A stretch of 38,226 nt of DNA from Nitrospirota bacterium (GTDB taxonomy: Bacteria; Nitrospirota; RBG-16-64-22), in contig JACPZO010000119.1 of assembly GCA_016195465.1 (NCBI GenBank), positions 1-38,226 on the forward strand. Reading direction: 5' to 3'. The translations under genes and the position numbers were made by a program. Shown in pieces: positions 11,117 to 28,857 of the stretch; positions within the stretch are counted from its first letter, which is position 1; each line of letters starts with the position of its first letter. The notes below the pieces were generated by a model. It worked only from the letters and a program-made list of their open reading frames with translations. It was not told where the DNA came from and ran no database searches.

Positions 11117-14100
11117 ATGCGTTTCCGGCTCCGCACCCTCTGCTTCGCCTCCCTTGCGCTTCTTCTCGCCGGGGCGCTCCTTCTTTCCTGGCGGCTCTCG
11201 GCCGCCGTCCAGCCCTTCGTCATCGCCGGGATCGAGAAGGCGTTCGGTGCGTCGGCCGGCGCCTCCCGGGTCTCCCTCGGGGTTTTTCCTCCCGCCCTCG
11301 TCATCGAAGATTTGGCCGTCCCGCCGCACATGTCCGTCTCGCGGGTCCGGTTCAACGTCTCTCCCGCTTCCGTCGTCGCGGGGGAACTGGTCCTTACGGT
11401 CGACATCGAGAAGCCCGCCCTTCGCGGAAGCCGGAGCAAGGAAGGCGTTCTTTCCTGGCAGGGAGTCCAGGACCGGTTTCTTTCGTACCTTCGCGTCCCT
11501 CCCCCGATCCCGATGCGCGTGGCGAAGGTTTCGATTCGCGCGGCCCGGGCGGATCTCCTCGACGAGTGGACCGGCGCCCGCGTCCGAATCGACGGGCTGG
11601 CCTCATCGATCGGCCTGGGCCAGGGGGGCAATGCCGATGAGGCGTCGTTGACGGCCGAATCTCAGTCCTTTCGAGTCGACTTCTCCGACGGCCGAACGAT
11701 TTCGGGCAGGGGCGAGACGGCCCTGCGAGTCAGCGGCCGGGAGGTCGTCATCAAAAAGGCATCGGCCGTCGTGGACGGGATGGACGTCTTGGCCGGCGGG
11801 ACGGTCTCTCTCTCGCCCGAAGGGGCGGTTGACATTGCGGGCCGGGCCCGGGGACCGATCGAGAAGGCCCTCGTCCTGGCCGGCCGGAGGGAGGATGGAG
11901 GCGGCCTTTTCGAACTGGAAGGAAAAATCACGGGAACCGTCGAGGCGCCGCTCGGGCGGGGCAGGCTCACGGTGACGGAGGGAAGGATCGGGCCGGTCCG
12001 GGTTGAGCGGTTTTCGGGCGAGATTTTGGCAAGCCGGAAGGGCCTTTCGGTCGGGCGGGGAGAGGCGGCCCTTTTCGGGGGGCGGGCGAGGGGAACGGCC
12101 GAGGTGGCGTGGCCGGACGGCCGGGTCAGATACGCGGCCGAGGCCGCCTTCGAGTCCCTTCGAACGGAACAGATCGGTGCTTTGGTCCGCCGTCTGCGAA
12201 GCGGTGCTCCGGTCGTTCCCGGAACGGTCAGCGGCCGAGTCGACCTCAAGGGTGGCGGGGGCGAACCGTGGCTGAGCGAGGGATCGGCGGACGTGGAGTT
12301 CCTCGGTGAAAAGGGATCGACCCTGTTTCCGCGGACGCCGGCCGTGAGGAAGGCGCGCGTGGCCGTGCGCCTTCCACGGGAGGGCGCGGGGAGCGTTTCC
12401 GCCGAAGCGGAGACGGAGGGCGGCCGGATCGACGTGAAGGGACAGGTCGCGCGGTCGGGCGAGATCGACCTTCTCGGGTCCGCGGCCGTCGATGACGTCG
12501 GTCCCTGGTTCGCCGGATTCGCCCCTCGACCGGCGGCGGGGCCCGCTCGAGCGGAAATGAAGCTTGGCGGCCACATCGACAGCCCTTCGCTTTCGATGGC
12601 CGTCAAGGCCGGGCCGGGCCGATATGCCTCCGTCCCTGTGTCATCCGTGGAAGGGCGAATCGGGTGGGAGGAAGGAAGGCTTACATTCGACGACGTGACG
12701 GCCCTGATGCCCTCCCGTCGGCCGGGAGGGGGTGATGGACGGTTCGATCTCAAGGGTTCGATCCTGGGAATCCGACCGGGGGAATCCGGCCCCGCGCCGG
12801 TCCGTTTCGACCTCCTGTTGACCGTGGCCCAAGGGGACCCCCGGAGCGTCACGTCCATGTTCCACCGAGACCTGCCGATCGAATTGACCGCGGACGGATC
12901 GTTCCGCCTGACCGGAACGCCATCGGCCCTTTCGGGGCGGGGGACGCTTCGATCCGGACCGGGAGAAGCTTACGGTCAGACGTTCAGCGCGGCCCAAGCC
13001 GTCTTTTCCCTGACCAACCGGGATATCCGCTTCGACCGGGCGACCGCGCGGCTGAATGGCGGTCAGGCGGAGGGAAGCGGGTGGATCGGGTTCGACGGGT
13101 CATACGAAGCCGATCTCAAGTTTGCGTCTCTTCCCGTATCCAAGATTTCTCTTTTAAGGGGCGTCGAACCGGCCGGCGCGCGGATGGAGGGTGCGCTCGG
13201 GGGGTGGATCCGAGGGAAGGGGACGTTCGCGGACCCCGGAATCGACGCCGAGATCGTTTCTTCGGGCCTTCGTCTGGGGGGCCGTGCCGTCGGGCCGCTC
13301 CGGGCGCGCCTCTCGACCGAGGGGCGTTCCGTTGTCCTGAGTGCCGATCTGGCCGAGCCCTCCATCCGCGCGGAGGCATCGCTCTCCCTGCGGGCTCCCC
13401 GCAACTTTCGGGCGCGGGCGGCATTGGAGAACGTCCAGCCGCTCGCCTATCTTGGGCCGGGGTGGCAGGAGAAGGGAGTCGTGAGGCTTTCGGGAGCGGT
13501 AGAGGCCCAGGGAGACCTCGACGATCCGCGGCTTCTCCGGGGCGAAGTCCGCCTGCACGACGTGGAAGCCTCGAGCGGAGATTTCCGGGCCGCCAACCAG
13601 GGGAACGTCGTCTTCTCCATCCGGGAAAGGACCGTTACGGCCGCTCAGGCGGCGTTCGTCGGCCCTTCCACGTCGTTCAAAGTGAGAGGAAGGTGGGAGG
13701 TACGGGGGGCGGTCGACCTCGGCCTGGAGGGACACGCCGACCTTCGTCTCCTCAAGGTTTTGACGTCCGAGGTCGAGGACGCGTCCGGCGCGGCGTCGTT
13801 TTCCGCGAGCCTCTCCGGAGAGACGTCGTCGCCGGCCGTTCGGGGGTCGATCCGGGGAGCGGGCGGATCGCTCCGCCTCAAGTCGATCGCCCAGCGGGTC
13901 TCGTCTCTCGGAGGCGAGATCCATTTCGCCCCCGGGCGCGTCTTGATCGAGGGTGTGAAGGGAGAGGTGGGCGGAGGGTCCGTTGCGATCGACGGGAGCA
14001 TCTCGTTGGCGGGCCTGAAGCCCGCGTCGTTCGCCGTCGTGGCGCGCGCGCGGGGCGTTACGATCCGCCCGTGGGGCGAGGCGGCCGTGAAGTCGAACGC

Positions 14101-14989
14101 CGATCTCGTTCTGGGAGGGGCGGCGGCGCGCCCTCTTCTTTCCGGAGAGGTCCGGCTGGTCTCCGGGCGGTACCGGGAGCGGTTCGACTGGAAGACGAAA
14201 CTGGCCGACCTGCGGCGGCGGGTCGACCGGCCGAGGACGGAAGCGGGATGGCTCGGAAAGGCCGACCTGGCGGTCCGCGTCGTGGGGCGAGAAAATCTCT
14301 GGATCGACAACAACGTTCTGCGCGCGCCGGTCACCGTCGACCTGGGGCTCGGCGGAACGGCGGCCCGCCCCGGCCTCGTGGGACGCGTCGAGGCCCGCGA
14401 GGGGACCATCCTCTTCCGGTCCCGGGAATTCAAGATATTGAACGCGGCCGTGGAGTTCGTGGACCCGCGGCGGATCCAGCCGGTGATGGATGTCCGCGCG
14501 GAGGCGAGGATCCAGTCGTACGTCGTCGAGATGTCTCTCATGGGGACCTTGGACCGGTTCTCGCTCGCGCTCAATTCGAGCCCCCCGCTGTCCGAGTTCG
14601 ACATTCTGTCCCTCCTGACGGTGGGGCAGGTCCCGAAGACCCTCGCGGGACGGGAGACGGGAGTGGCCACGGGGGAGGCCGTTTCGTTCCTGACGGGGCG
14701 CCTGCAGGACGTGGTCGAGGAGCGCGTCCGCCGGATCGCGGGGATCGACCGTTTCCAGATCGATCCGTACGCGACGACGTCGAGCCTCGCGGGGGCGCCG
14801 CGCGTGACCGTCGGGAAGCGCCTGCTGGGCGACCGGCTGTACGTGACGTACTCCGCGTCGATCGGGACGAGCGAGGAGCAGATCATCCAGCTCGAGTACC
14901 GGCTGACGGACCAGATCTACCTCGTGGGGGAGCGCGACGAAACGGGCCAGGTCGGAGGCGATGTCCGGTTTCGGTTCCGGTTCAAATGA
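11117..14989 (+). CDS. tamB: TamB-like translocation/assembly module protein (DUF490, AsmA-like)
   Basis: Long beta-helical AsmA-like protein; C-terminus LNSSPPLSEFDILSLLTVGQ...GKRLLGDRLYVTYSASIGTSEEQIIQLEYRLTDQIYLVGERDETGQVGGDVRFRFRFK. Confidence 0.9.
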   Translation: MRFRLRTLCFASLALLLAGALLLSWRLSAAVQPFVIAGIEKAFGASAGASRVSLGVFPPALVIEDLAVPPHMSVSRVRFNVSPASVVAGELVLTVDIEKPALRGSRSKEGVLSWQGVQDRFLSYLRVPPPIPMRVAKVSIRAARADLLDEWTGARVRIDGLASSIGLGQGGNADEASLTAESQSFRVDFSDGRTISGRGETALRVSGREVVIKKASAVVDGMDVLAGGTVSLSPEGAVDIAGRARGPIEKALVLAGRREDGGGLFELEGKITGTVEAPLGRGRLTVTEGRIGPVRVERFSGEILASRKGLSVGRGEAALFGGRARGTAEVAWPDGRVRYAAEAAFESLRTEQIGALVRRLRSGAPVVPGTVSGRVDLKGGGGEPWLSEGSADVEFLGEKGSTLFPRTPAVRKARVAVRLPREGAGSVSAEAETEGGRIDVKGQVARSGEIDLLGSAAVDDVGPWFAGFAPRPAAGPARAEMKLGGHIDSPSLSMAVKAGPGRYASVPVSSVEGRIGWEEGRLTFDDVTALMPSRRPGGGDGRFDLKGSILGIRPGESGPAPVRFDLLLTVAQGDPRSVTSMFHRDLPIELTADGSFRLTGTPSALSGRGTLRSGPGEAYGQTFSAAQAVFSLTNRDIRFDRATARLNGGQAEGSGWIGFDGSYEADLKFASLPVSKISLLRGVEPAGARMEGALGGWIRGKGTFADPGIDAEIVSSGLRLGGRAVGPLRARLSTEGRSVVLSADLAEPSIRAEASLSLRAPRNFRARAALENVQPLAYLGPGWQEKGVVRLSGAVEAQGDLDDPRLLRGEVRLHDVEASSGDFRAANQGNVVFSIRERTVTAAQAAFVGPSTSFKVRGRWEVRGAVDLGLEGHADLRLLKVLTSEVEDASGAASFSASLSGETSSPAVRGSIRGAGGSLRLKSIAQRVSSLGGEIHFAPGRVLIEGVKGEVGGGSVAIDGSISLAGLKPASFAVVARARGVTIRPWGEAAVKSNADLVLGGAAARPLLSGEVRLVSGRYRERFDWKTKLADLRRRVDRPRTEAGWLGKADLAVRVVGRENLWIDNNVLRAPVTVDLGLGGTAARPGLVGRVEAREGTILFRSREFKILNAAVEFVDPRRIQPVMDVRAEARIQSYVVEMSLMGTLDRFSLALNSSPPLSEFDILSLLTVGQVPKTLAGRETGVATGEAVSFLTGRLQDVVEERVRRIAGIDRFQIDPYATTSSLAGAPRVTVGKRLLGDRLYVTYSASIGTSEEQIIQLEYRLTDQIYLVGERDETGQVGGDVRFRFRFK

Positions 14990-14997
14990 ACGGAAAT

Positions 14998-15111
14998 TCG
15001 GTGAATAGGTGAATAGGTGAATGGGTGAGGAATCCCCCCGTTCCCCCCTTTTTCAAAGGGGGGGCAGGGGGGATTGGGTGAATCGGTGAATGGGTGAATC
15101 GGTGAATCGGG
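14998..15111. repeat. GTGAATSG octamer array split by an inserted palindrome (15031-15075)
   Basis: GTGAATAG GTGAATAG GTGAATGG GTGAGG [AATCCCCCC...GGGGGGATT] GG GTGAATCG GTGAATGG GTGAATCG GTGAATCG. Confidence 0.9.
15031..15075. repeat. 45-bp palindromic element AATCCCCCCgTtCCCCCCTTTTTCAAAGGGGGGGcAGGGGGGATT
   Basis: Palindrome read directly; octamer units lie on both sides. Confidence 0.85.
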
Positions 15112-17852
15112 CGAAGGTGGCTGGGGTACTTATGGTCTTCCTCATGATCTCCTGCGCCGCGTTTGCGCGGGCGGGGGAGACGTCCGCGCTCGTGGGGCGG
15201 CCGATTGCCGGATGGGCTTTTCAGGGCCTCGTGCAATTTCCCGCCGTCGAGGCCGAAGATCTGGCCGGGTTCGCCGTCGGGGAACCGCTCGACCGGGCGC
15301 GCCTCAGCCGCGCGATCAAGCGCCTGATGGCCACGGGCCGCTTCGCCGACGTTCGGGTCGAAGGGGAGGAAGAAGCGGGGGGCACCCGGCTGGTATTCCG
15401 CGTGACCGAGCATCCGATCCTCAGGAAGATCGCATGGGACGTCCCGCTTTCCATGCGCGGCGAAATCGAAAGACGGGTCCCTTTCCGAACGAACGGGGCG
15501 TTCGATTCCCGGATCGTTCCCCGCGCCGAACGCCGAATCGTTTCCTTCCTTCGGGGCGAGGGGTTCGCTTCTCCCGTCGTGGAGGTTCGTCCGGTTGACG
15601 AAACATCCGGAAGCGTGGATCTCCAAGTCCGGATCGTTCCGGGGGAGCCGATGCGCTGGGCCGGCGTCGAGGTCGTGGACCGGAGTGGAACGAAAGTCGA
15701 TCTCCCCGGCGGGACGTCTCCTCCCTTCGGAATGGGGACGCCCGTCCGCGCTGCCGACGTCCGCCATGGGGCCGAGAAACTCCAGGCCTCCCTTCGGGAG
15801 CGCGGGTGGTACGAGGCGTCGGTTTCCCTTGCCTCGGAGGCCGATAGACTCGATCCATCGGCGCGGTTCACCGTGGAGACCGGGCCGCGGTACGACGTCC
15901 GGTTCGAGGGCGGGATTCTCCTCGATGATCCGCGCTGGCGGGAAGAAGTCCGGAGGGTTCTGACGGACTGGACGGGCCCGGAGACGCCGGGGGACGCGGC
16001 GCGCGTCCTGGAGAGGTACTACCGGGAGGCCGGGTATCCTTTCTCGCGCGTCGAAGGCAAGACCGATCCGGTCGAGGGCGGCGCCCGGCGGATCGTTTTC
16101 CATATCGACCCCGGTCCCCGGCCGCGCGTCGCGGATGTGCGCGTTTCGGGCGCCCTGCGGATCGGGCCCGACGAGATTTTCCCTCTCCTCTCGGTCCAAC
16201 AGGATCGGTGGACCACGCGCGGCTTTTTCGATCCGGGCCGTCTCGAAGAAGACGCGGAGACGATTCGGGCTTTCTATCGCTCGCGGGGATTCCTGTCGGC
16301 CGAGGTCGGCGTTCCGTCCGTCGACGTGTCGCCGGACCGCTCCTCCGTGTCGGTCGAGTTCCAGGTCCGGGAAGGCGAGCGGACGTTCGTGCGCTCGGTC
16401 GATCTCACGGGGCTGGTCTGGAATTCGCGGGTGGAACTCCTTCCCCACATCCAAACGCGGCCCGAAAGTCCGTACGAGGAGGAAAAAGCGGAAGAAGACC
16501 GTATCCGCCTCATGGAGCAGTTGGCTCGAAAGGGCCATCTGCAAGCCACGGTCGATCTCCTCTCGACCTTCTTCGATGACGGGCGCTCCGTGGGGATCAC
16601 CTTCGACGTGGATGAGCGCGAGGCGCGCGCTCTGGGCCGGATCATCGTCCTCGGCCTCGTGCGGACCCGGCGTCCGGTGGCGGAGCGGGAGATTCGCTTG
16701 AAGGAAGGCGACCCGTACGACTTCGAGGGACTTCTCCTGGCCGAGAACCGCCTCAGGCGGCTGGGGATATTCTCCGAGGCCCGGTTCCATCCGGTCGATC
16801 CGCTCGACGAGTCTCCCGTCCGGGACGTGGTCCTCTCTCTCAAGGAGGCGGATGCCGGCACGGTCGAGTTCGGCGCCGGGTACGGCGACTACGAGCGGTG
16901 GCGCGGGATGATCGAGGTCTCCCACCGGAACGTCGGAGGGTGGAACAGGCGCGTGTCGGGACGCCTGGAGGCTTCCACGCTCGAGAAAAGACTCCTGCTG
17001 ACCGGGAGGGAGCCGCGCGCGTTCGAGACGGAATACGATCTCCGGGTGCAGGGAGTGTGGGAGGAGACGGAGAAGCGGAACATCGACACGCACGAAACGA
17101 TCTACAAGATCCGCCGGAGCGGGGTCGCGGCCGGGCCGGAAGGGACGTACGCCTCCGTCTGGAAGGCGTCGCTGACTTACCAGTACGAGAACACAACGAT
17201 CCTCGATATCAGCCCCGGGGCCGTCCTCTCCCGCGAAGACGAGGGCCGGCTGGGGGTGTCGAGCCTGACGCCGGCCCTGTTCCTCGATCTCCGGGACGAT
17301 CCGTTCGAGCCGAGACGCGGTCTCTTTGCCGGTGCGTCCGTCAAGGGGGCGGCGAAGGCGATCGGGTCGGAGATATCCTTCTACAAACTCTCGACGCAAG
17401 CGAGCGCTTACATTCCCCTCACGGGGCGCGTCGTTCTCGCCGTCGGAGGGAAGTGGGGGCGCGGGAAAGCCTCGGGCGAGGACAGAAACCTGCCGGTCTT
17501 CGACCGCTTCTTCCTGGGCGGCCGGTCGTCCGTTCGGGGGTTCTCGCAGGACACGCTCGGTCCGAAGGGAACGGATGGGACGCCGTCCGGGGGGAACGTG
17601 ATCGTCCAGGGGAACGTCGAGCTTCGGTGGTCGCTGGGAAGGGAGTTCCAGGTCGTTGCCTTCGCGGACGCGGGGAACGTCTGGCTCGTTCCGCCCGCCG
17701 CGAGCGACCTCAAGCTCCGGCAGAGCGCCGGTGTCGGCGTCCGGTACAAGACGCCCGTCGGGCCGCTCCGCCTCGACTACGCGCGGAAGATCGACCGGGA
17801 GCCGGGCGAGTCCTCGGGGGAATGGCATTTCTCCCTGGGACATGCGTTCTAG
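15090..17852 (+). CDS. BamA/TamA-like outer membrane protein with POTRA repeats
   Basis: Several POTRA-like domains (FRVTEHPILRKIAWDVPLSMRGEIE...), FFLGGRSSVRGFSQDTLGP motif, C-terminal LRLDYARKIDREPGESSGEWHFSLGHAF. Start is ambiguous because of the octamer array. Confidence 0.9.
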   Translation: MGESVNRAKVAGVLMVFLMISCAAFARAGETSALVGRPIAGWAFQGLVQFPAVEAEDLAGFAVGEPLDRARLSRAIKRLMATGRFADVRVEGEEEAGGTRLVFRVTEHPILRKIAWDVPLSMRGEIERRVPFRTNGAFDSRIVPRAERRIVSFLRGEGFASPVVEVRPVDETSGSVDLQVRIVPGEPMRWAGVEVVDRSGTKVDLPGGTSPPFGMGTPVRAADVRHGAEKLQASLRERGWYEASVSLASEADRLDPSARFTVETGPRYDVRFEGGILLDDPRWREEVRRVLTDWTGPETPGDAARVLERYYREAGYPFSRVEGKTDPVEGGARRIVFHIDPGPRPRVADVRVSGALRIGPDEIFPLLSVQQDRWTTRGFFDPGRLEEDAETIRAFYRSRGFLSAEVGVPSVDVSPDRSSVSVEFQVREGERTFVRSVDLTGLVWNSRVELLPHIQTRPESPYEEEKAEEDRIRLMEQLARKGHLQATVDLLSTFFDDGRSVGITFDVDEREARALGRIIVLGLVRTRRPVAEREIRLKEGDPYDFEGLLLAENRLRRLGIFSEARFHPVDPLDESPVRDVVLSLKEADAGTVEFGAGYGDYERWRGMIEVSHRNVGGWNRRVSGRLEASTLEKRLLLTGREPRAFETEYDLRVQGVWEETEKRNIDTHETIYKIRRSGVAAGPEGTYASVWKASLTYQYENTTILDISPGAVLSREDEGRLGVSSLTPALFLDLRDDPFEPRRGLFAGASVKGAAKAIGSEISFYKLSTQASAYIPLTGRVVLAVGGKWGRGKASGEDRNLPVFDRFFLGGRSSVRGFSQDTLGPKGTDGTPSGGNVIVQGNVELRWSLGREFQVVAFADAGNVWLVPPAASDLKLRQSAGVGVRYKTPVGPLRLDYARKIDREPGESSGEWHFSLGHAF

Positions 17853-17861
17853 GAAAGGCCG

Positions 17862-18013
17862 GTGAATCGGTGAATGGGTGAATGGGTGAATCGGTGAATC
17901 GGTGAATAGGTGAATCGGTGAATCGGTGAATCGGTGAGTCGGTGAATAGGTGAATCGGTGAGTCGGTGAATGGGTGAATCGGTGAGTCGGTGAATAGGTG
18001 AATCGGTGAATCG
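17862..18013. repeat. Octamer tandem array, consensus GTGAATCG (variants GTGAATGG, GTGAATAG, GTGAGTCG), 19 contiguous units
   Basis: Counted unit by unit; units 10-18 form a 24-bp higher-order repeat. Confidence 0.95.
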
Positions 18014-18034
18014 GTTGAGTTTGGGGGAAACAGC

Positions 18035-18664
18035 TTGAAAGGCCAACTCATAACGATCTTGGCAATTGCCGTTCTTCTCGCCGCGCGGCCGGCGGGGGCC
18101 GGCGTTCTCCTCGACGGCGTCGCGGCGACGGTCGACGGTCAGGTGATCACGGTCTACGATTTGACGCGCGCGGAGAGTGTGGCGCGGATCCTCGTCGGGG
18201 AAGATCCGGCTAGCCGGGCGCGGGTATCGAGGGAGGACGTCCTGGAGGCGATCGTCAACCAGAGGCTGACCCTGACGGAAGCCATCCGGCTGCGGATGGA
18301 CGAAAGCGATTCCGAGCGGGTCGAAGAGGTCTTGCGCCAGGCCATGGGCCGCTACGCGTCGGCCGCGGTATGGAAAGCGGCAGTCGAGGAGGCGGGCCTG
18401 TCCGAATCGGACGTCCAGGAGGAAGTGGAAAAGCAGGTGAGGCTTCTCAAATACCTGCACCGCCGTGTTCCGGTTGCCGTGACGCTCGCGGATGCGGGGC
18501 GGTATTTCGAGGAGAACCAGACCCGCATGGGCGGGGCGTCGTTCGGCGACGTGGTCGACACGATCCTCGACCTGTTGCGCGAGGAGAAGTTCAACGCCGC
18601 GATGAAGGAGTATCTTGAGAAACTGCGGGAAGCGGGGGAGATCCGCATTCGGCCCCGGCCATGA
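18035..18664 (+). CDS. SurA N-terminal-like periplasmic chaperone, no obvious parvulin PPIase domain
   Basis: TTG start after GGGGGAAA; signal peptide; LLDGVAATVDGQVITVYDLTRAESVARI...VLEAIVNQRLTLTEAIR; ends after ~209 aa. Confidence 0.75.
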   Translation: MKGQLITILAIAVLLAARPAGAGVLLDGVAATVDGQVITVYDLTRAESVARILVGEDPASRARVSREDVLEAIVNQRLTLTEAIRLRMDESDSERVEEVLRQAMGRYASAAVWKAAVEEAGLSESDVQEEVEKQVRLLKYLHRRVPVAVTLADAGRYFEENQTRMGGASFGDVVDTILDLLREEKFNAAMKEYLEKLREAGEIRIRPRP

Positions 18665-18719
18665 GGCGCGGAACGGCCGGGGCGTCCCCGGCGCGGCGGT
18701 TCTTCCTCCCCGAGAGACC

Positions 18720-18842
18720 GTTGAAGAACCCCGCCTTGGAAGGCGGGGATTCTCCGACCTCCAAGGTGTTTTTTCGATATTTGCATTCGTGCGCCTTGAC
18801 CCCGCCCCAAGGGGCGGGGATTGCGGCGCACTGCGCGGTTCA
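18720..18842 (+). repeat. ~122-bp dispersed double-hairpin element, copy 2
   Basis: Near-identical to 4169-4290, same orientation. Confidence 0.93.
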
Positions 18843-18889
18843 GGATGGCTTGAGAGGCGCTCGCAAGGTCCCGTCAGGTTCATGCGCGG

Positions 18890-19507
18890 CTACGGGTTTC
18901 TCTTGAGGAAGTTCGTCGCCTCGACATGACCCGGGATTCGTTCCAGCACCTGTAGGTATGCGGTCTTGGCCTTTCCGGCATGACCCAGCCACGCCTCGGC
19001 GCGGGCCAAGTAGACGAGAACCGTGGCGTCGGCCGGGTAGCGCAAGGCCACCTCGGCCGCGTGCTTGGCCAGATCCTCCCACTTTCGCTCACCTTCCTCG
19101 CAGATCATGAGGCGGACGTTCGCCAGGTAGTCCCAGGGCGATACGGCGAGGACCTGCTTCGCGTGGTACGCCGCTTCCCCCCACCGTTGTTGCGCCAGGA
19201 GCGGCAAGGTGAGGCCCAGCCGCGCGTCCAGGGACCTGGGATTGACCTTCAAGGCCGCCGTGTATTTGTGGACGGCCTCGTTGTGGCTGCCTTGCAGGTA
19301 GTTGAGCCATGCGTGGCGAAGCAGGGCGAATTCATGGGGAGGCTGTCTTGCCACGAGCGGGTCAAGGACGGCCGCGGCCTGGGCGTACAGGCCTCCCTGC
19401 TCCAGTTTGTATGACTGGGCCCATGGATCATTGCCGGAGGCAAAGGCCGAAGCGCATTGCCACAGGAAAACAGCGAACGTCAGGCTCGGCAGAAAGTAAG
19501 GCTTCAC
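18890..19507 (-). CDS. TPR-repeat secreted/periplasmic protein
   Basis: GTG start at 19507: VKPYFLPSLTFAVFLWQCASAFASGNDPWAQSYKLEQGGLYAQAAAVLDPLVARQP...; TPR-like repeats. Confidence 0.75.
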   Translation of the reverse strand: MKPYFLPSLTFAVFLWQCASAFASGNDPWAQSYKLEQGGLYAQAAAVLDPLVARQPPHEFALLRHAWLNYLQGSHNEAVHKYTAALKVNPRSLDARLGLTLPLLAQQRWGEAAYHAKQVLAVSPWDYLANVRLMICEEGERKWEDLAKHAAEVALRYPADATVLVYLARAEAWLGHAGKAKTAYLQVLERIPGHVEATNFLKRNP

Positions 19508-19562
19508 GGCTCGTTCCTCCCTTGTTGTCGGTGACCCCCTTTTTTCTCGCGGCGCGCCGGTC

Positions 19563-20474
19563 CTACCACTCCCCGGCGAGCGCAAGGAATCCGTAGAGGC
19601 TCGTGTAGGAGACGTTCTCGCGGGCCAGGGCCGTTTTGTACTTCTCCCAGCCGGCGCCGAGCAGGATGCTCGTGGATCGGCCGACTCTCCACCCCGTGCT
19701 GAGGGCGATCGCGCCGGTCTGCAGGTCGGCGAGGTTGTACACGGCGGCGCTGTCCCCATCCACGGCGTAGATCCGTTCGCCCAAGAGGAATGCCAGTTGA
19801 ACGTTTTCGAGGAGGGCGTCCGATTTCCTCTCCGGGCGATAGGTCCACTTCACCTCCAGGGCGGACGTGCCGTCCCGGCCCTGGGAGCGGACAGGGTTCG
19901 ACGAAATGATGAAATAGCCGCGGAGCTGGAGCCACTGCTCGCCGTTCAGCCCGAATCCGGCCGTCGGGGTCCACTGCCGGACCTCCAGATTGCCGGGCTG
20001 CGTCGCGCTGCGCCCAAACCGGCTGGAAGCATAGCCGACGTCCATGCGGACCGTTCCGCCGAGGTCCGAGACGGAGAGCCGAGAGGCCAGCACGCGGACT
20101 TGGTCCGTTCCGTTGGTCGCGTCGTTGTTGTCCACCGCGTGGAGGTCCATGCGGAGGCCGATCCGGGCAGGAACGGCGTCCGGCACGTAGGAAGCCCGAC
20201 CTGACAGGAAAGACGCATATTGAGCAATGTCGGGGTAGCCCGGCTTGCCGTTCACGTTTGCATAGTCGCCTCCGACCGTGAGTCCGGCGCGCTCGAAATA
20301 CTGGGCGTCCAGGAACAGACGTCCGCCGGTCACGCTCTCCCGCGTCGGGGAACCCTGGTAGCGACCGTAAGAGAACGCGGGGGTCAGGCTGAGCGTCCAG
20401 TCCTCGGCTCCGAGCGCGTCGGTCCCAACGATCGCAACGAACATCATGGAAAGAGCGCAAATGCGGGGTCTCAT
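19563..20474 (-). CDS. Predicted outer membrane beta-barrel protein
   Basis: MRPRICALSMMFVAIVGTDALGAEDWTLSLTPAFSYGRYQGSPTRESVTGGRLFLDAQYFERAGLTVGGDYANV... amphipathic strand pattern with signal peptide. Confidence 0.65.
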   Translation of the reverse strand: MRPRICALSMMFVAIVGTDALGAEDWTLSLTPAFSYGRYQGSPTRESVTGGRLFLDAQYFERAGLTVGGDYANVNGKPGYPDIAQYASFLSGRASYVPDAVPARIGLRMDLHAVDNNDATNGTDQVRVLASRLSVSDLGGTVRMDVGYASSRFGRSATQPGNLEVRQWTPTAGFGLNGEQWLQLRGYFIISSNPVRSQGRDGTSALEVKWTYRPERKSDALLENVQLAFLLGERIYAVDGDSAAVYNLADLQTGAIALSTGWRVGRSTSILLGAGWEKYKTALARENVSYTSLYGFLALAGEW

Positions 20475-22699
20475 CTTTCCTCCATTTGGCTCACGGCTGA
20501 AAGGTTCCTTTCCTGGGCGCAACGGGGCACTCCATTGTCATCCACGCGACCTTCGCTCTCGATGAAGGCGGTCCAACGCTTGGAACCGGCTTCCACCACG
20601 AGGGACTCGCACCCCCCGATGGGGGAGATCGCGGCCGATGTCGAGACGCGAAGGACGGCCCCCAGCCCCAGCCGGAGGGTGTGCACGCCCTCTTGTCGCC
20701 AGACTTGAGCGGCGTCATCCCACGTTCTTCGATATCGGCTTTCCACCCACGCCCCGAGCGGACGAGAGAAGGCCACGAGAAGCCGCTGCCAAGCCGCGAG
20801 AGGCATGAGTCGGGCCGGGGGGCTGTCGTGCCACTGTACCGCCCCGCCGGTCAGGGGGGTGAGGCCCATCGCGAGGAGCCACAGATCGAGGAAGCGGTCC
20901 CGGTTTCCGCGGCGGTCGAAGAACGCCAGGATGTTCGGTTTTTCCTCGAACGCGGCGCTCCCTCCGATGTCGGAGACGATCCGGAACTGTCCGAGCAGCG
21001 TGACCTCAACGCTCAGTCGGCGGCCCGCCGGAGGGCGGGAGGAGGATTCACGGAAGCGGTAGCCGAGCGTTCGCCCCGCGGGCAGGTGCAGGGAGGCGGC
21101 CAGGCGCTCGTCGCGACCCGAAGCCGCGACGCTTGTCCCCTCCACGGGCCGTCCCGCGAGTTGGAAGACCGGATCGGGTCCAGCTTCTGGCCCAGCCTCT
21201 GCCCGCGCGAGGATGTTGCAGAGATGGAAGGGAGACGTGGGGCTGCCCAACGCGGGCTCGCGCTGTACTTGGAGGTGCAGGTGGGGCTGAGGGGACCGCC
21301 CCGAGTTGCCGCAAGCCGCCAGGGGCTGTCCGGCGGACACCCATTCCCCCTCTCTGACGACGATGGAGCCCGGGCGCAGATGGGCGAGCAACACGGTGTG
21401 CCCCGTGGCGATCCGAAGAAGGACGTGGTTTCCCCAGTTGTGAGTCGTGTCGACTTCGCCGGGCGCGTTGTCGGGAAGGTCGTCCTGACGGCGAACGACC
21501 GTGCCCGACGCGGGCGCGGTTACGCTCGCTCCGTAGCAGTTGTAATCGTCGAGCGTTCCTCCGTCCGTGCGGAAGCTGCGGCCCTGGTCGAGGATGAAGA
21601 AGTCGAGAGCGTGCTGCCAGGGCGGCTGGTGGGTGTGGCGGCCGTGGAAGCCTTGGTAGACGTGCCATTCCCCCAGGAAGGGAGGGAAGAGAGGAACGCT
21701 TTCCGGGTCTCCCAGGCGCGTCTTGGCGAGCCGCGCGCGCTCGTAGCTGATCTCGGGAAGGGCGGGGTTGGCCAGCGTCAGAACGGGCGGCGAGATTCCC
21801 AACCTTTGACGGAGGCCGGCCAGCATGGTGTAGGCGGCCAGGAGGAAGGGAGAGGCCAGAGCGGGGAGATGGTGGGGGGTCAGAACCTGTTTCAATCCGG
21901 CGGAGGCCAGCGCCGCGAGCGCGGCCCCGAACATCGCCACAAGGAAGCCGGCGCGGCCGGGGACGCTGAAGATCCCGCCCAGGGCCATGGCCGTGAGCAT
22001 GAAGTTGAAACCCGTCAAGGTCGGCGAGGCCGCCGGATCGCCCAGGAAAACCAGCGTGGCCGTTCCCACGCCGTAGCCGCAGAGGGCGAGGATCGCCAGA
22101 TAGCGCGAGGTTGCCAGGAGCCCGACAAACAGCAGGAACCCGGCGATGGGGTGAGGAGCGAAGAGGAACCATCCGAGCGCCTCGAAGAAACCGTCCAGAC
22201 CCAACGGAAAGACGGCGCCTGTATGCGATGGCAGGGGGCCGGGCACGAGGTTCCCGGAGGCTTGGGCGGCCAACCCCAGCGCCCACGAGACCAGGACGAA
22301 GGGCAGGCTGAGCACGGGCAGCTCTCCCGCGCGCCAGAGCAGGGAGGCGATCGCGGGGGTGACGATTGTGGTGAGCGCCGCGCCTGCCGCAATCAGCACG
22401 ATGAGCCCGGCGTCCGGTATTGTCGAAGCGCCGATCCAAAGTCCGACGAGGAGACTGTTGTATACGATCGGTTCCGGGCTCCCGACCGAATAGCCGAGGA
22501 GCCTCGCGGCCCAGCGGCCGCAGAGCGCGGCCAGCAGGCCGGAGAGACCGATCGCCGGTTTCCAGAGAGTGGCGGCGAGAAACAGAAGTCCCGCGAAGGG
22601 GCTCTCGCAAAACAGGACGGCCGCGTAGGAGCGGGCCACCTCGGCCGGCAGCGCGACGATCGAGGACAGGCGGGCGAAAAGCGGTCGGCTTCCGTCCAT
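20471..22699 (-). CDS. Urea transporter (UT family) fused to a C-terminal M23/LytM metallopeptidase domain
   Basis: UT-like halves (ESPFAGLLFLAATLWKPAIG, YNSLLVGLWIGA, LPVLSLPFVLVSWALGLAA; TGFNFMLTAMALGGIF) then M23 signature (HALDFFILD...VTAPASGTVV...GNHVLLRIATGHTVLLAHL...GQPLAACGNSGRSPQPHLHLQV) in one continuous frame. Confidence 0.85.
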   Translation of the reverse strand: MDGSRPLFARLSSIVALPAEVARSYAAVLFCESPFAGLLFLAATLWKPAIGLSGLLAALCGRWAARLLGYSVGSPEPIVYNSLLVGLWIGASTIPDAGLIVLIAAGAALTTIVTPAIASLLWRAGELPVLSLPFVLVSWALGLAAQASGNLVPGPLPSHTGAVFPLGLDGFFEALGWFLFAPHPIAGFLLFVGLLATSRYLAILALCGYGVGTATLVFLGDPAASPTLTGFNFMLTAMALGGIFSVPGRAGFLVAMFGAALAALASAGLKQVLTPHHLPALASPFLLAAYTMLAGLRQRLGISPPVLTLANPALPEISYERARLAKTRLGDPESVPLFPPFLGEWHVYQGFHGRHTHQPPWQHALDFFILDQGRSFRTDGGTLDDYNCYGASVTAPASGTVVRRQDDLPDNAPGEVDTTHNWGNHVLLRIATGHTVLLAHLRPGSIVVREGEWVSAGQPLAACGNSGRSPQPHLHLQVQREPALGSPTSPFHLCNILARAEAGPEAGPDPVFQLAGRPVEGTSVAASGRDERLAASLHLPAGRTLGYRFRESSSRPPAGRRLSVEVTLLGQFRIVSDIGGSAAFEEKPNILAFFDRRGNRDRFLDLWLLAMGLTPLTGGAVQWHDSPPARLMPLAAWQRLLVAFSRPLGAWVESRYRRTWDDAAQVWRQEGVHTLRLGLGAVLRVSTSAAISPIGGCESLVVEAGSKRWTAFIESEGRVDDNGVPRCAQERNLSAVSQMEER

Positions 22700-22703
22700 G
22701 ACC

Positions 22704-24098
22704 TCAGTCCGGCAGGCCGTGCGGATAGGGGTTTCCCAGGTGATCCGGCAGCCGCTCCAGGGCGGTGATCGCTTCCAAGTCCTCCGCTCTGCGCACGACG
22801 GAGACCGCGCCGTCTTCGTGAATCATGACGACGTTTGGACGGTACTGGATGAATTGGAGCCACTGGGTGTTGTTGTAGGCCCCCGCCGGACCGATGACCA
22901 GCGAGTCGCCGACGCTCAGAGGAGGAAGCATGACGCTGTGTCGGACGACGTCCAGATTCATGCAAAGCGATCCATAGACGACGGTTTCCTCGGGAATGCC
23001 GTCGAGCGGGCGGACGGGTTTGAACTCGTGGTGGTACCAGAAGCTGGTGAAGAGGAGATTGACGCCGGCGTCCACCACGACCGCCCGGCGTCCGTCGGGG
23101 AGCCGCTTGGTTCCAACGACGCTGGCAACCAGGACCTCCGCATCGTCGACGATCGCTCGACCGGTCTCGAGGATGAGCGTGGGGGGGCGTCTCCTCCGGC
23201 CGGAGCGGCGTCGCGTCGCCTCCATCAGCGCGGAGGCGATCGCCTCCGCGTACTGCTCGATGCTGGGCACAACCTGGTCCGGAGGGAGGTAAACGCCGTG
23301 GAGGGAGTTTCTCGAGGCAAACCCGCCCCCGATATCGATCGTCTCGATCGCGCATCCCGTCTCGCTCTCGACGGCCTTCATGAAGTCGGCCATGATGCGG
23401 ACCTGCGAGATGTAGGCCCGGACGTCGAGAATGAAGGTTCCGATGTGGCTGTGCAAGCCCGTCAGCCTCAAGGACCGACCGGCCGCGATATGTCGCGCCG
23501 CGTCCATCGCCTCGCCGGAGTCGATGTTGAAGCCGAACCGACTCCACGGGTCGGCATATCCCGTATCGAAATTGAGCCTCATCGTGACGCCGATCTTCTT
23601 GCCGGCCCGTTCGGCGATGTCTTCGACCAGGTAAAGTTCGTCCAGGTGGTCCAGGTGGATGGATGCGCCCTCGGCGACCGCCGATTCGAGGATGGCGCGC
23701 GGCTTGTAGGGCCCGTTGAACAGGATGCGGGATCCCGGGACGCCGAGCGCCCGCGCCTTCTGATACTCGAAATCCGACACCACCTCGGCCCACGCGCCTT
23801 CCTGGTGCAGGACGGCGCACACGGCGTTGAGATAGTTGGTCTTGTAGGACCAGGCGTAGCGGACACGGGGGTAGCGCGTGGCGAACGCGCGGCGAAGCCG
23901 CCTCACGTTCTCCCGGAGCTTCCTTTCGGAGATGACGAACAACGGGGATCCGAATTCTCTGACCAAGCGCGCGATCTCGACGCCGTCTACGTCGGGCTGG
24001 AAGAACTGGTAGCGGCTGGCGCCGAACTTGTTCATCGCGCCGGCGCGGTGCGGCGTGATGGTGGGCTTCTGCCATGGGAGTCGCGTGCGCCGGCTCAT
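22704..24098 (-). CDS. Fold-type III PLP-dependent decarboxylase (diaminopimelate/ornithine decarboxylase-like)
   Basis: RYAWSYKTNYLNAVCAVLHQEGAWAEVVSDFEYQKARALG, GLHSHIGT, IDIGGGFASR, LILETGRAIVDDAEVLVASVVGTK, GAYNNTQW. Confidence 0.85.
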   Translation of the reverse strand: MSRRTRLPWQKPTITPHRAGAMNKFGASRYQFFQPDVDGVEIARLVREFGSPLFVISERKLRENVRRLRRAFATRYPRVRYAWSYKTNYLNAVCAVLHQEGAWAEVVSDFEYQKARALGVPGSRILFNGPYKPRAILESAVAEGASIHLDHLDELYLVEDIAERAGKKIGVTMRLNFDTGYADPWSRFGFNIDSGEAMDAARHIAAGRSLRLTGLHSHIGTFILDVRAYISQVRIMADFMKAVESETGCAIETIDIGGGFASRNSLHGVYLPPDQVVPSIEQYAEAIASALMEATRRRSGRRRRPPTLILETGRAIVDDAEVLVASVVGTKRLPDGRRAVVVDAGVNLLFTSFWYHHEFKPVRPLDGIPEETVVYGSLCMNLDVVRHSVMLPPLSVGDSLVIGPAGAYNNTQWLQFIQYRPNVVMIHEDGAVSVVRRAEDLEAITALERLPDHLGNPYPHGLPD

Positions 24099-24104
24099 GA
24101 GGGC

Positions 24105-25175
24105 CTAGGCGTTTTGGCGGTTTCCGTCGATGACGACGGACTCGTAGGTCGACAGGGGGACGATGGTTTCCTCCGCGTAGCGGACGAACATCGTCCCGGC
24201 GAGGGGCTCGGAAAACGATGGAGCCGGCTTGCCCATCATCAGGTGGAGCAAGGCGGCCGGGAGGTTTCGGCCGACCCCGTGCGTGAGATAGATCCAGGCC
24301 GGGAATCGGGGATTGATCTCGACGAGATGATAATTCCCGCGGCGGTCCCGGATCATCTCCACCTCGAGGGGGCCGCGCCACCGGAGAACGGAGACGAGAG
24401 CGGAAGCGGCGTCGAGCAGGGCGCGGTCATGCGTGCAGATTCCCGCCCAGGCCTTGCCCTTGGCCGTGACGGCCCGCTTCTTCATCGTGACGGCGCCCAA
24501 CATGGCGCCGTCGCCGTCGCCGATGGCGACGAGGTTGTGTTCTTCACCCTCGACGAATCGCTGGACGAGCACGGGGAGCCCCCATTCCGCGGCGATCCGG
24601 CGGAACGCGGAAGCGCCTTCGTCGGCGCCGAAAACGACCTGGGCGTCATAGAAGATCCCCTTGACGACCATGGGGTAGCGCCAGCCTTCCTTGTGGCACG
24701 CATGAAAGAAGCCGGCGTGGTTGACTGGACGGATGGAAGGGCACGAGACGCCCGCAATCTTCGCGAGCTCGGGCAGGCGGTCCTTGTCGCGCAGCCGAAG
24801 CTGGTCCAGGCTCGGCAGAAACGTGCGGATACCCATGGTCGTGAGCCGCGGCCCGAGCCGAATCAGGGACGGCAGTTCCGCGTCAAGGCAAGGGATCAGG
24901 GCGCGAAGTTTCTCCTTTGCGTGGATGTCGGCCAGCCGGGAGATCAAGGCCTCCTCGGTGTTCGAGGGGTAGGGGGTGAGAAAGGCGGCGTCAAAGTACC
25001 GGGGCAGATAGAGGCCGGGGTCCATCGCATCGTATCCCAGGCCGACGATTCGGACGTCCCGCCCGAGGGCTTCGCGAAGACAGCGGGCCACCGCCACGCC
25101 CGGACCCGGATTGTCCGGCTTGGCGTTCAAGCCGGTGACGGCGACCGTGCGAACGCGACGATGGCCGGTTTTCAT
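24105..25175 (-). CDS. ATP-grasp domain protein (carboxylate-amine ligase-like)
   Basis: VAVTGLNAKPDNPGPGVAVARCLREA, YPMVVKGIFYDAQVV, VLVQRFVEGEEHNLVAIGD, GPLEVEMIRDRRGNYHLVEINPRFPAW. Confidence 0.85.
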   Translation of the reverse strand: MKTGHRRVRTVAVTGLNAKPDNPGPGVAVARCLREALGRDVRIVGLGYDAMDPGLYLPRYFDAAFLTPYPSNTEEALISRLADIHAKEKLRALIPCLDAELPSLIRLGPRLTTMGIRTFLPSLDQLRLRDKDRLPELAKIAGVSCPSIRPVNHAGFFHACHKEGWRYPMVVKGIFYDAQVVFGADEGASAFRRIAAEWGLPVLVQRFVEGEEHNLVAIGDGDGAMLGAVTMKKRAVTAKGKAWAGICTHDRALLDAASALVSVLRWRGPLEVEMIRDRRGNYHLVEINPRFPAWIYLTHGVGRNLPAALLHLMMGKPAPSFSEPLAGTMFVRYAEETIVPLSTYESVVIDGNRQNA

Positions 25176-25459
25176 CCGTTGTGCTTTCGAAGAAGCGCGA
25201 CGAACTCGAGGATGTCGCGCTCCGCCTCGCGGGGGTCCGCGTCATACTCGCTTTGCACGGTCGCGGCGATTTCGACGAGATCCTTGTTCTGCTGCAACAG
25301 GCGGAGCAGGCGCAGCCCCGTGGAGTTGACCGTGAAGCTGTTTCCCGTGACGGGATCGAAGACGAAGCCGTTCTCGCTTACGGCAAGACGCTGCAAGGCC
25401 TCCTGGGACGGCAGGAGGACGCGGTCAGGCGCCCCTTTTCTCGGCGATGAGGACGTCAA
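25172..25459 (-). CDS. PqqD-like protein (RiPP-recognition-element fold)
   Basis: VSENGFVFDPVTGNSFTVNSTGLRLLRLLQQNKDLVEIAATVQSEYDADPREAERDILEFVALLRKHNG; overlaps the ATP-grasp start by 4 bp. Confidence 0.75.
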   Translation of the reverse strand: MTSSSPRKGAPDRVLLPSQEALQRLAVSENGFVFDPVTGNSFTVNSTGLRLLRLLQQNKDLVEIAATVQSEYDADPREAERDILEFVALLRKHNG

Positions 25460-28341: not shown

Positions 28342-28857
28342 ATCCCGGACAGTGGCGAGCAGTGGCTCCGGGAGATTTCCGAAGCCTACGCGGACGCTCG
28401 AGAGGCAATCCCGTTCGGCGACCTGCTGGGCACACCCTTCGATGAAGGGGATCTTTTTCACCTGGCGCCTTCGGTAGCGCTCAAGTTCCGCGGGTTGCCC
28501 ATGACCGAGGCGAAAATCCGCCGGGCGACAGAGGCCGCGCTCGCGAGTTACGTCGCGAATCGAGATGAACACGAGGCGACCCTGAACCGCAAAGTGCGCC
28601 CGAGTCCCCGCCCCTTGGGGCGGGGTCAAGGCGCACGAATGCAAATAACGAAAAGTACCTTAGAGGTCGGAGAATCCCCGCCTTTCAAGGCGGGGTTCTT
28701 CAACGATCCTCGCTTGTCGTTCGCTTTTTGCTACCTGGCGAGTCATTTCGGTCTGGGTCTCTTGTCGGTCCCTGAGCGGGAGGCAATCATGCGGTACGTC
28801 GAGGAGAACGAGGCGGAGCTTGAGCGGCCGATCGAAGACGCAACGAGCCCCTGACCC
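28342..28857 (+). pseudogene. Truncated unidentified gene containing an in-frame copy of the double-hairpin element
   Basis: Frame open from after TAA (28339) to TGA, no plausible start before ~28495; IPDSGEQWLREISEAYADAREAIPFGDLL...ATLNRKV-[element]-DPRLSFAFCYLASHFGLGLLSVPEREAIMRYVEENEAELERPIEDATSP*. Confidence 0.55.
28583..28704 (-). repeat. ~122-bp dispersed double-hairpin element, copy 3 (inverted)
   Basis: Reverse complement matches 4169-4290 with few differences. Confidence 0.93.

Follow-up and report, generated by a model that had tools for sequence, protein, structure and literature searches.

Results

The window analysed here, a stretch of 38,226 nucleotides from a Nitrospirota bacterium (contig JACPZO010000119.1), carries six minus-strand ORFs between positions 25459 and 18890, confirming the arrangement of six same-strand genes with small junctions that the first-pass annotation had described. 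Based on Pfam and NCBIfam scans, the first gene (25172-25459, 95 amino acids, TTG start) encodes a PqqD-fold protein of the RRE type (PF05402, E-value 4.8e-14, 52.9 bits). It overlaps by 4 bp with the gene of an ATP-grasp ligase of the carbamoyl-phosphate-synthase-like group (24105-25175, 356 amino acids), whose matches to PF15632 and PF02655 lie only marginally above the cut-off (31.6 and 26.9 bits). A 6-bp gap separates the ligase from an alanine-racemase-fold (fold III) PLP decarboxylase (22704-24098, 464 amino acids; PF02784 and PF00278, 114.6 bits, Orn/DAP/Arg decarboxylase), which is followed after 4 bp by the fusion of a urea-transporter (UT) domain with an M23 peptidase (20471-22699, 742 amino acids; PF03253 with 159.1 bits and PF01551 with 50.6 bits), hereafter UT-M23. 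The next gene, overlapping by 4 bp, encodes an outer-membrane β-barrel (19563-20474, 303 amino acids) and the last one, after a gap of 55 bp, a TPR protein matching TPR families (18890-19507, 205 amino acids, GTG start), both with a signal-like N-terminal segment. The barrel matches no Pfam family; its AlphaFold2 model (pLDDT 88.4) has 14 strands, with OmpG as the nearest solved fold. The TPR protein aligns to four homologues with 46-56% identity.

An inverted repeat of about 125-134 bp (window positions 18716-18849 and 28576-28708) flanks a 9.7-kb stretch containing the operon and has 43 matches in the genome, many of them partial. Genes for TamB-like, Omp85 (BamA/TamA-type) and SurA-like proteins lie in a row on the plus strand, convergent with the operon (11117-18664), and a tandem array of the octamer CGGTGAAT (19.5 copies, 17860-18015) is located between the Omp85 and SurA-like genes. 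A role in anti-phage defence was considered and rejected, as PADLOC gave no match.

A single scan of species genomes gave seven relatives that are 44-48% identical to UT-M23 and come from Methylococcaceae, Gallionella and unclassified Gammaproteobacteria, and the order of the genes around them is that of the window. In profile searches UT-M23 was found in the class to which one of these relatives belongs (16 of 369 genomes), in the Gallionella family (6 of 121) and in the window's phylum (4 of 245, the window's own genome counted); two congeners do not contain it. Among 32 loci the order PqqD, ATP-grasp, PLP decarboxylase and UT-M23 is intact in 21, cut by contig ends in eight and different in three, and PqqD directly precedes the ATP-grasp gene in all 21 complete loci; since the loci were picked via UT-M23, these counts measure what accompanies this protein. 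Pairwise identities of the cassette proteins covary (r = 0.77-0.96). The recurrence of the gene order in other genomes together with the correlated identities argues against a chance arrangement. Comparison of genome neighbourhoods thus shows that the neighbours are conserved and, with the co-divergence of the proteins, bears out the earlier proposal of a conserved biosynthesis-plus-envelope module.

In a phylogenetic tree the UT-M23 of the window is nested in a gammaproteobacterial clade, and a clade of three sequences from its own phylum is rejected (p-AU = 0.00013; two of these three are long branches). The window's copy of the cassette has probably been acquired horizontally. No full-length UT-M23 relative was found in plasmid records. 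Several loci show variations. In four of them (L064, L065, L066 and L068) PqqD forms the rear part of a longer protein, whose N-terminal domain of some 180 amino acids is TetR-like by eye and has no Pfam match. Genes of a two-component sensor and regulator adjoin the cassette in several lineages (L022, L023, L028, L064, L065, L068 and L079). The Methylococcaceae loci have a methyltransferase in the position of the TPR protein.

The decarboxylase conserves the Schiff-base Lys86 and the catalytic Cys379. The acid that usually stands beside the catalytic Cys is replaced by Met380, and Met occupies this position in 24 of 24 homologues. This acid binds the side-chain amine of the substrate, and a Met is found at its place in FigC, whose substrate is acylated ornithine; the peptide-conjugate decarboxylase MccE belongs to the same clade as FigC (PMC7857480). 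The closest solved structure is the N-citrylornithine decarboxylase FslC (7kh2, 245.6 bits versus 162.3 for DAP decarboxylase), and the motifs NGPxK, WSRFG, CMxxD and GAYN are shared with FslC/FigC. Judged from these residues, the active site resembles that of N-citrylornithine decarboxylase and is unlike that of enzymes for free basic amino acids. In the alignment the citrate-contacting His357 and Arg387 of FslC correspond to Leu382 and Gln412, and citrate is therefore not predicted as the acyl group. The enzyme is also related to LysA. Its score with the curated NCBIfam model of LysA (220 bits) is below the cut-off of 297.9, and a separate lysA fragment is present elsewhere in the genome; together with the lack of an acid beside the Cys, this led us to reject a housekeeping function in lysine synthesis. 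In keeping with the first-pass annotation, the decarboxylase and the ATP-grasp ligase thus stand outside the known lysine and polyamine enzymes.

The ATP-grasp ligase is of the PRK12767 type but scores under the cut-off of that model. Lys172, Glu273 and the motif E286-x-N288-P-R290 are invariant in seven homologues; the E-x-N-P-R motif binds Mg in the ATP-grasp superfamily. The ligase matches no curated graspetide model. Family scans of the six operon genes reveal no radical SAM enzyme, and comparison of small ORFs across loci gives no conserved precursor peptide, so that the absence of both, as first noted from the window alone, holds. The one recurring small ORF, present at five loci of which two do not contain PqqD, encodes a secreted Cys protein of the Sec type and lies close to a two-component system.

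UT-M23 comprises a urea-channel fold (residues ~7-297), an M23 metallopeptidase domain (~335-482) and a β-rich C-terminal domain (~490-742), for which Foldseek gives only a weak match to DUF3598. In the AlphaFold2 model (pLDDT 90.6) the UT part superposes on dvUT with a Foldseek TM-score of 0.83-0.85, normalised to the target. The filter of UT channels includes Gln/Glu residues at the So and Si sites, among them E187 of dvUT, as well as the Sm leucines and T130 (PMC4357013). The LP boxes and Sm leucines are retained here, and T130 is replaced by Ser131. Both Gln/Glu residues are lost: the Gln of dvUT, which we take to be residue 24, is Ala27, and Glu187 is Trp177. Across the UT-M23 homologues the site of Glu187 is never Glu or Gln, and that of the Gln is Ala, Ser, Thr, Gly or Trp, with the exception of one divergent clade. 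Since both residues are replaced and no urease was found in the genome, urea is unlikely to be the solute, and the suggested link to urea or guanidine is not upheld.

The zinc ligands and the catalytic His of the M23 domain are intact (His357, Asp366, His440, His473 and His475, invariant in 30 sequences). In the UT fold both termini are on the same side of the membrane, and no hydrophobic span follows residue 310. Lys and Arg number 4.0 on average in residues 1-25 and 5.75 in residues 296-335, compared to 0.83 in the loop between the two halves. The Cys content of the C-terminal part (1.67%) can be compared with 1.1 and 1.57% in the cytosolic enzymes, 0.17% in the barrel and 0.48% in the TPR protein. 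Topology, positive-inside pattern and Cys content all point to the cytosol as the predicted location of the M23 domain, against the earlier assumption that it acts in the envelope; it is therefore not an obvious cell-wall enzyme. Related membrane-linked M23 proteins are encoded on a Thermus plasmid and on a haloarchaeal plasmid, the latter (L100, 2755-3681) with 39% identity over 176 residues to the peptidase domain of UT-M23.

A different enzyme set accompanies UT-M23 in other genomes. At four loci (L079, L080, L084 and L075) the operon continues after UT-M23 and the TPR gene with a fold-I decarboxylase of the Orn/Lys/Arg type (OKR) and, where the contig allows, also with a biotin-carboxylase-like ATP-grasp protein and a C45 acyltransferase. 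The alternative ATP-grasp protein lies inside the UT-M23 operon in L079, L080 and L075, behind the unrelated decarboxylase. It is present in all five of the UT-M23 genomes G521, G578, G524, G339 and G356, in none of which the canonical ATP-grasp ligase was found. In G524 and G356 it is located on a different contig from UT-M23, so that the link is one of co-occurrence only; the UT-M23 contig stops within the decarboxylase gene in G524 and just past UT-M23 in G356. Among the remaining 18 genomes with UT-M23 a single one has the alternative protein, and there the match is distant and contains an internal stop. The two ATP-grasp types thus almost exclude each other (hypergeometric probability 1.8e-4, uncorrected for kinship), and in the UT-M23 tree the pair L075/L076 is far from the pair L079/L080. 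Each of the two sets pairs one amino-acid decarboxylase with one ATP-grasp ligase, and both feed into the same genes for channel, peptidase and envelope proteins. The exchange suggests an amino-acid product, both ligated and decarboxylated, as the compound that the envelope module handles. The set of decarboxylase, biotin-carboxylase-like protein and C45 acyltransferase also recurs on plasmids (L086, L087 and L088) near gabT, CN hydrolase and ABC or APC transporter genes.

Discussion

We propose that these six genes have spread horizontally as a cassette for biosynthesis and export, with a probability of roughly 45% for the full mechanism. The product of the cassette is probably a small amine derived from an amino acid, which passes through the urea-channel-like pore to which the peptidase is fused. 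In this scheme an amino acid would be conjugated in the cytosol by the ATP-grasp ligase, through an amide or another acyl linkage, and the PLP decarboxylase would then strip the α-carboxylate from the conjugate to yield an amine, an order of reactions that we infer. PqqD may present a peptide or peptidyl intermediate, a role left weaker by the lack of a conserved precursor peptide. The M23 domain, fused to the pore and predicted to lie on the cytosolic side, would trim the product, which would exit first by the UT-fold channel and next by the OmpG-like barrel, while the TPR protein would act in the periplasm. The product may be a peptide or amine conjugate, as had been suggested from the window, and the enzyme set swapped in elsewhere strengthens this suggestion.

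The reading with the best support is that an amino-acid product, ligated and decarboxylated, is exported; its main rival is uptake followed by catabolism. In that case a small peptide or an amine conjugate would enter through the barrel and the UT pore, to be cleaved by the cytosolic M23 domain and trapped or degraded by the ATP-grasp ligase and decarboxylase. Import is conceivable because UT proteins are passive channels. Further weight against export comes from the OKR set outside the cassette, where its neighbours look catabolic: in Roseobacter the OKR decarboxylase, biotin-carboxylase-like protein and C45 acyltransferase adjoin gabT and an ABC transporter with substrate-binding proteins, and in Chondrinema gabT, a CN hydrolase and an APC permease. 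The canonical operon, in contrast, contains no degradative enzymes according to the family scans, and an ATP-consuming ligase and a PqqD protein would suit synthesis better. Uptake appears unlikely to us, although it comes first among the alternatives.

The constant position of PqqD immediately before the ATP-grasp gene, the channel fused to a peptidase and the ability of MccE, from the FigC clade, to decarboxylate a peptide conjugate (PMC7857480) would also fit a RiPP cluster with its precursor encoded elsewhere, in which PqqD binds the leader, the ATP-grasp ligase and decarboxylase modify the core and M23 cuts the leader at the exporter, the part played by the C39 domain in PCAT transporters. 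We regard this as doubtful: the only small ORF conserved near the loci is that of the Sec-type secreted protein, the ligase does not fit the graspetide models and the UT pore offers little width for a peptide. A cell-wall function is improbable; in it the ligase and decarboxylase would furnish peptidoglycan with a diamine or a modified amino acid, and M23 would trim the wall. M23 proteins are mostly murein hydrolases, the residues are intact here and the decarboxylase is akin to LysA; against this stand the predicted cytosolic location, the separate lysA and the related membrane-linked protein in a haloarchaeon, a group without murein. Assimilation of urea or nitrogen through the channel, to which the clear family match of the UT domain might point, was rejected as highly improbable, the filter pair being replaced and no urease having been found.

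Returning to the export reading, one may tentatively extend it to a novel type of secretion unit. Here a channel descended from urea channels and fused to a cytosolic M23 domain would export small metabolites, amides or peptides, whose synthesis can be taken over by one or another set of decarboxylase plus ATP-grasp enzyme, a generalisation that we would not yet expect to hold. If export is the right reading, the operon would represent a channel-based route of natural-product export that is not ATP-driven; the fold of a urea channel would have been co-opted for a different solute, and an M23 peptidase would lie on the side of the membrane where it is not expected. UT-M23 could then serve as a genome-mining handle for amino-acid-derived metabolites, for example of methane and iron oxidisers.

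The enzyme pairing has precedents, whereas the channel-peptidase fusion and the six-gene set were not found described in the open literature, a scope outside which most subscription journals lie. In rhizoferrin synthesis in Francisella, FslC/FigC with an NIS synthetase likewise combine a ligase and a fold-III decarboxylase whose substrate is an acylated amino acid. There the ligase is the NIS synthetase instead of an ATP-grasp enzyme, the decarboxylase FslC has the citrate-contacting His and Arg that are not kept here, and an MFS exporter takes the place of PqqD, UT-M23, barrel and TPR protein. BtrJ and BtrK of butirosin synthesis reportedly act in series as an ATP-grasp ligase and a fold-III decarboxylase, the same pair of enzyme classes as in this operon. 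BtrK acts on an acyl-carrier-protein thioester, while this operon has no carrier protein, and its similarity to the present decarboxylase is lower (116-117 bits compared to 245.6 for FslC). The channel dvUT (3k3f) shares the fold, the LP boxes and the Sm leucines with UT-M23, in which the filter is replaced and the M23 and β-domains are fused to the pore. A cytosolic peptidase fused to an exporter is known from the PCAT ABC transporters, which carry a C39 leader peptidase. The logic would be the same, although the peptidase and the pore of UT-M23 are unrelated to those of PCATs and the pore is not ATP-driven.
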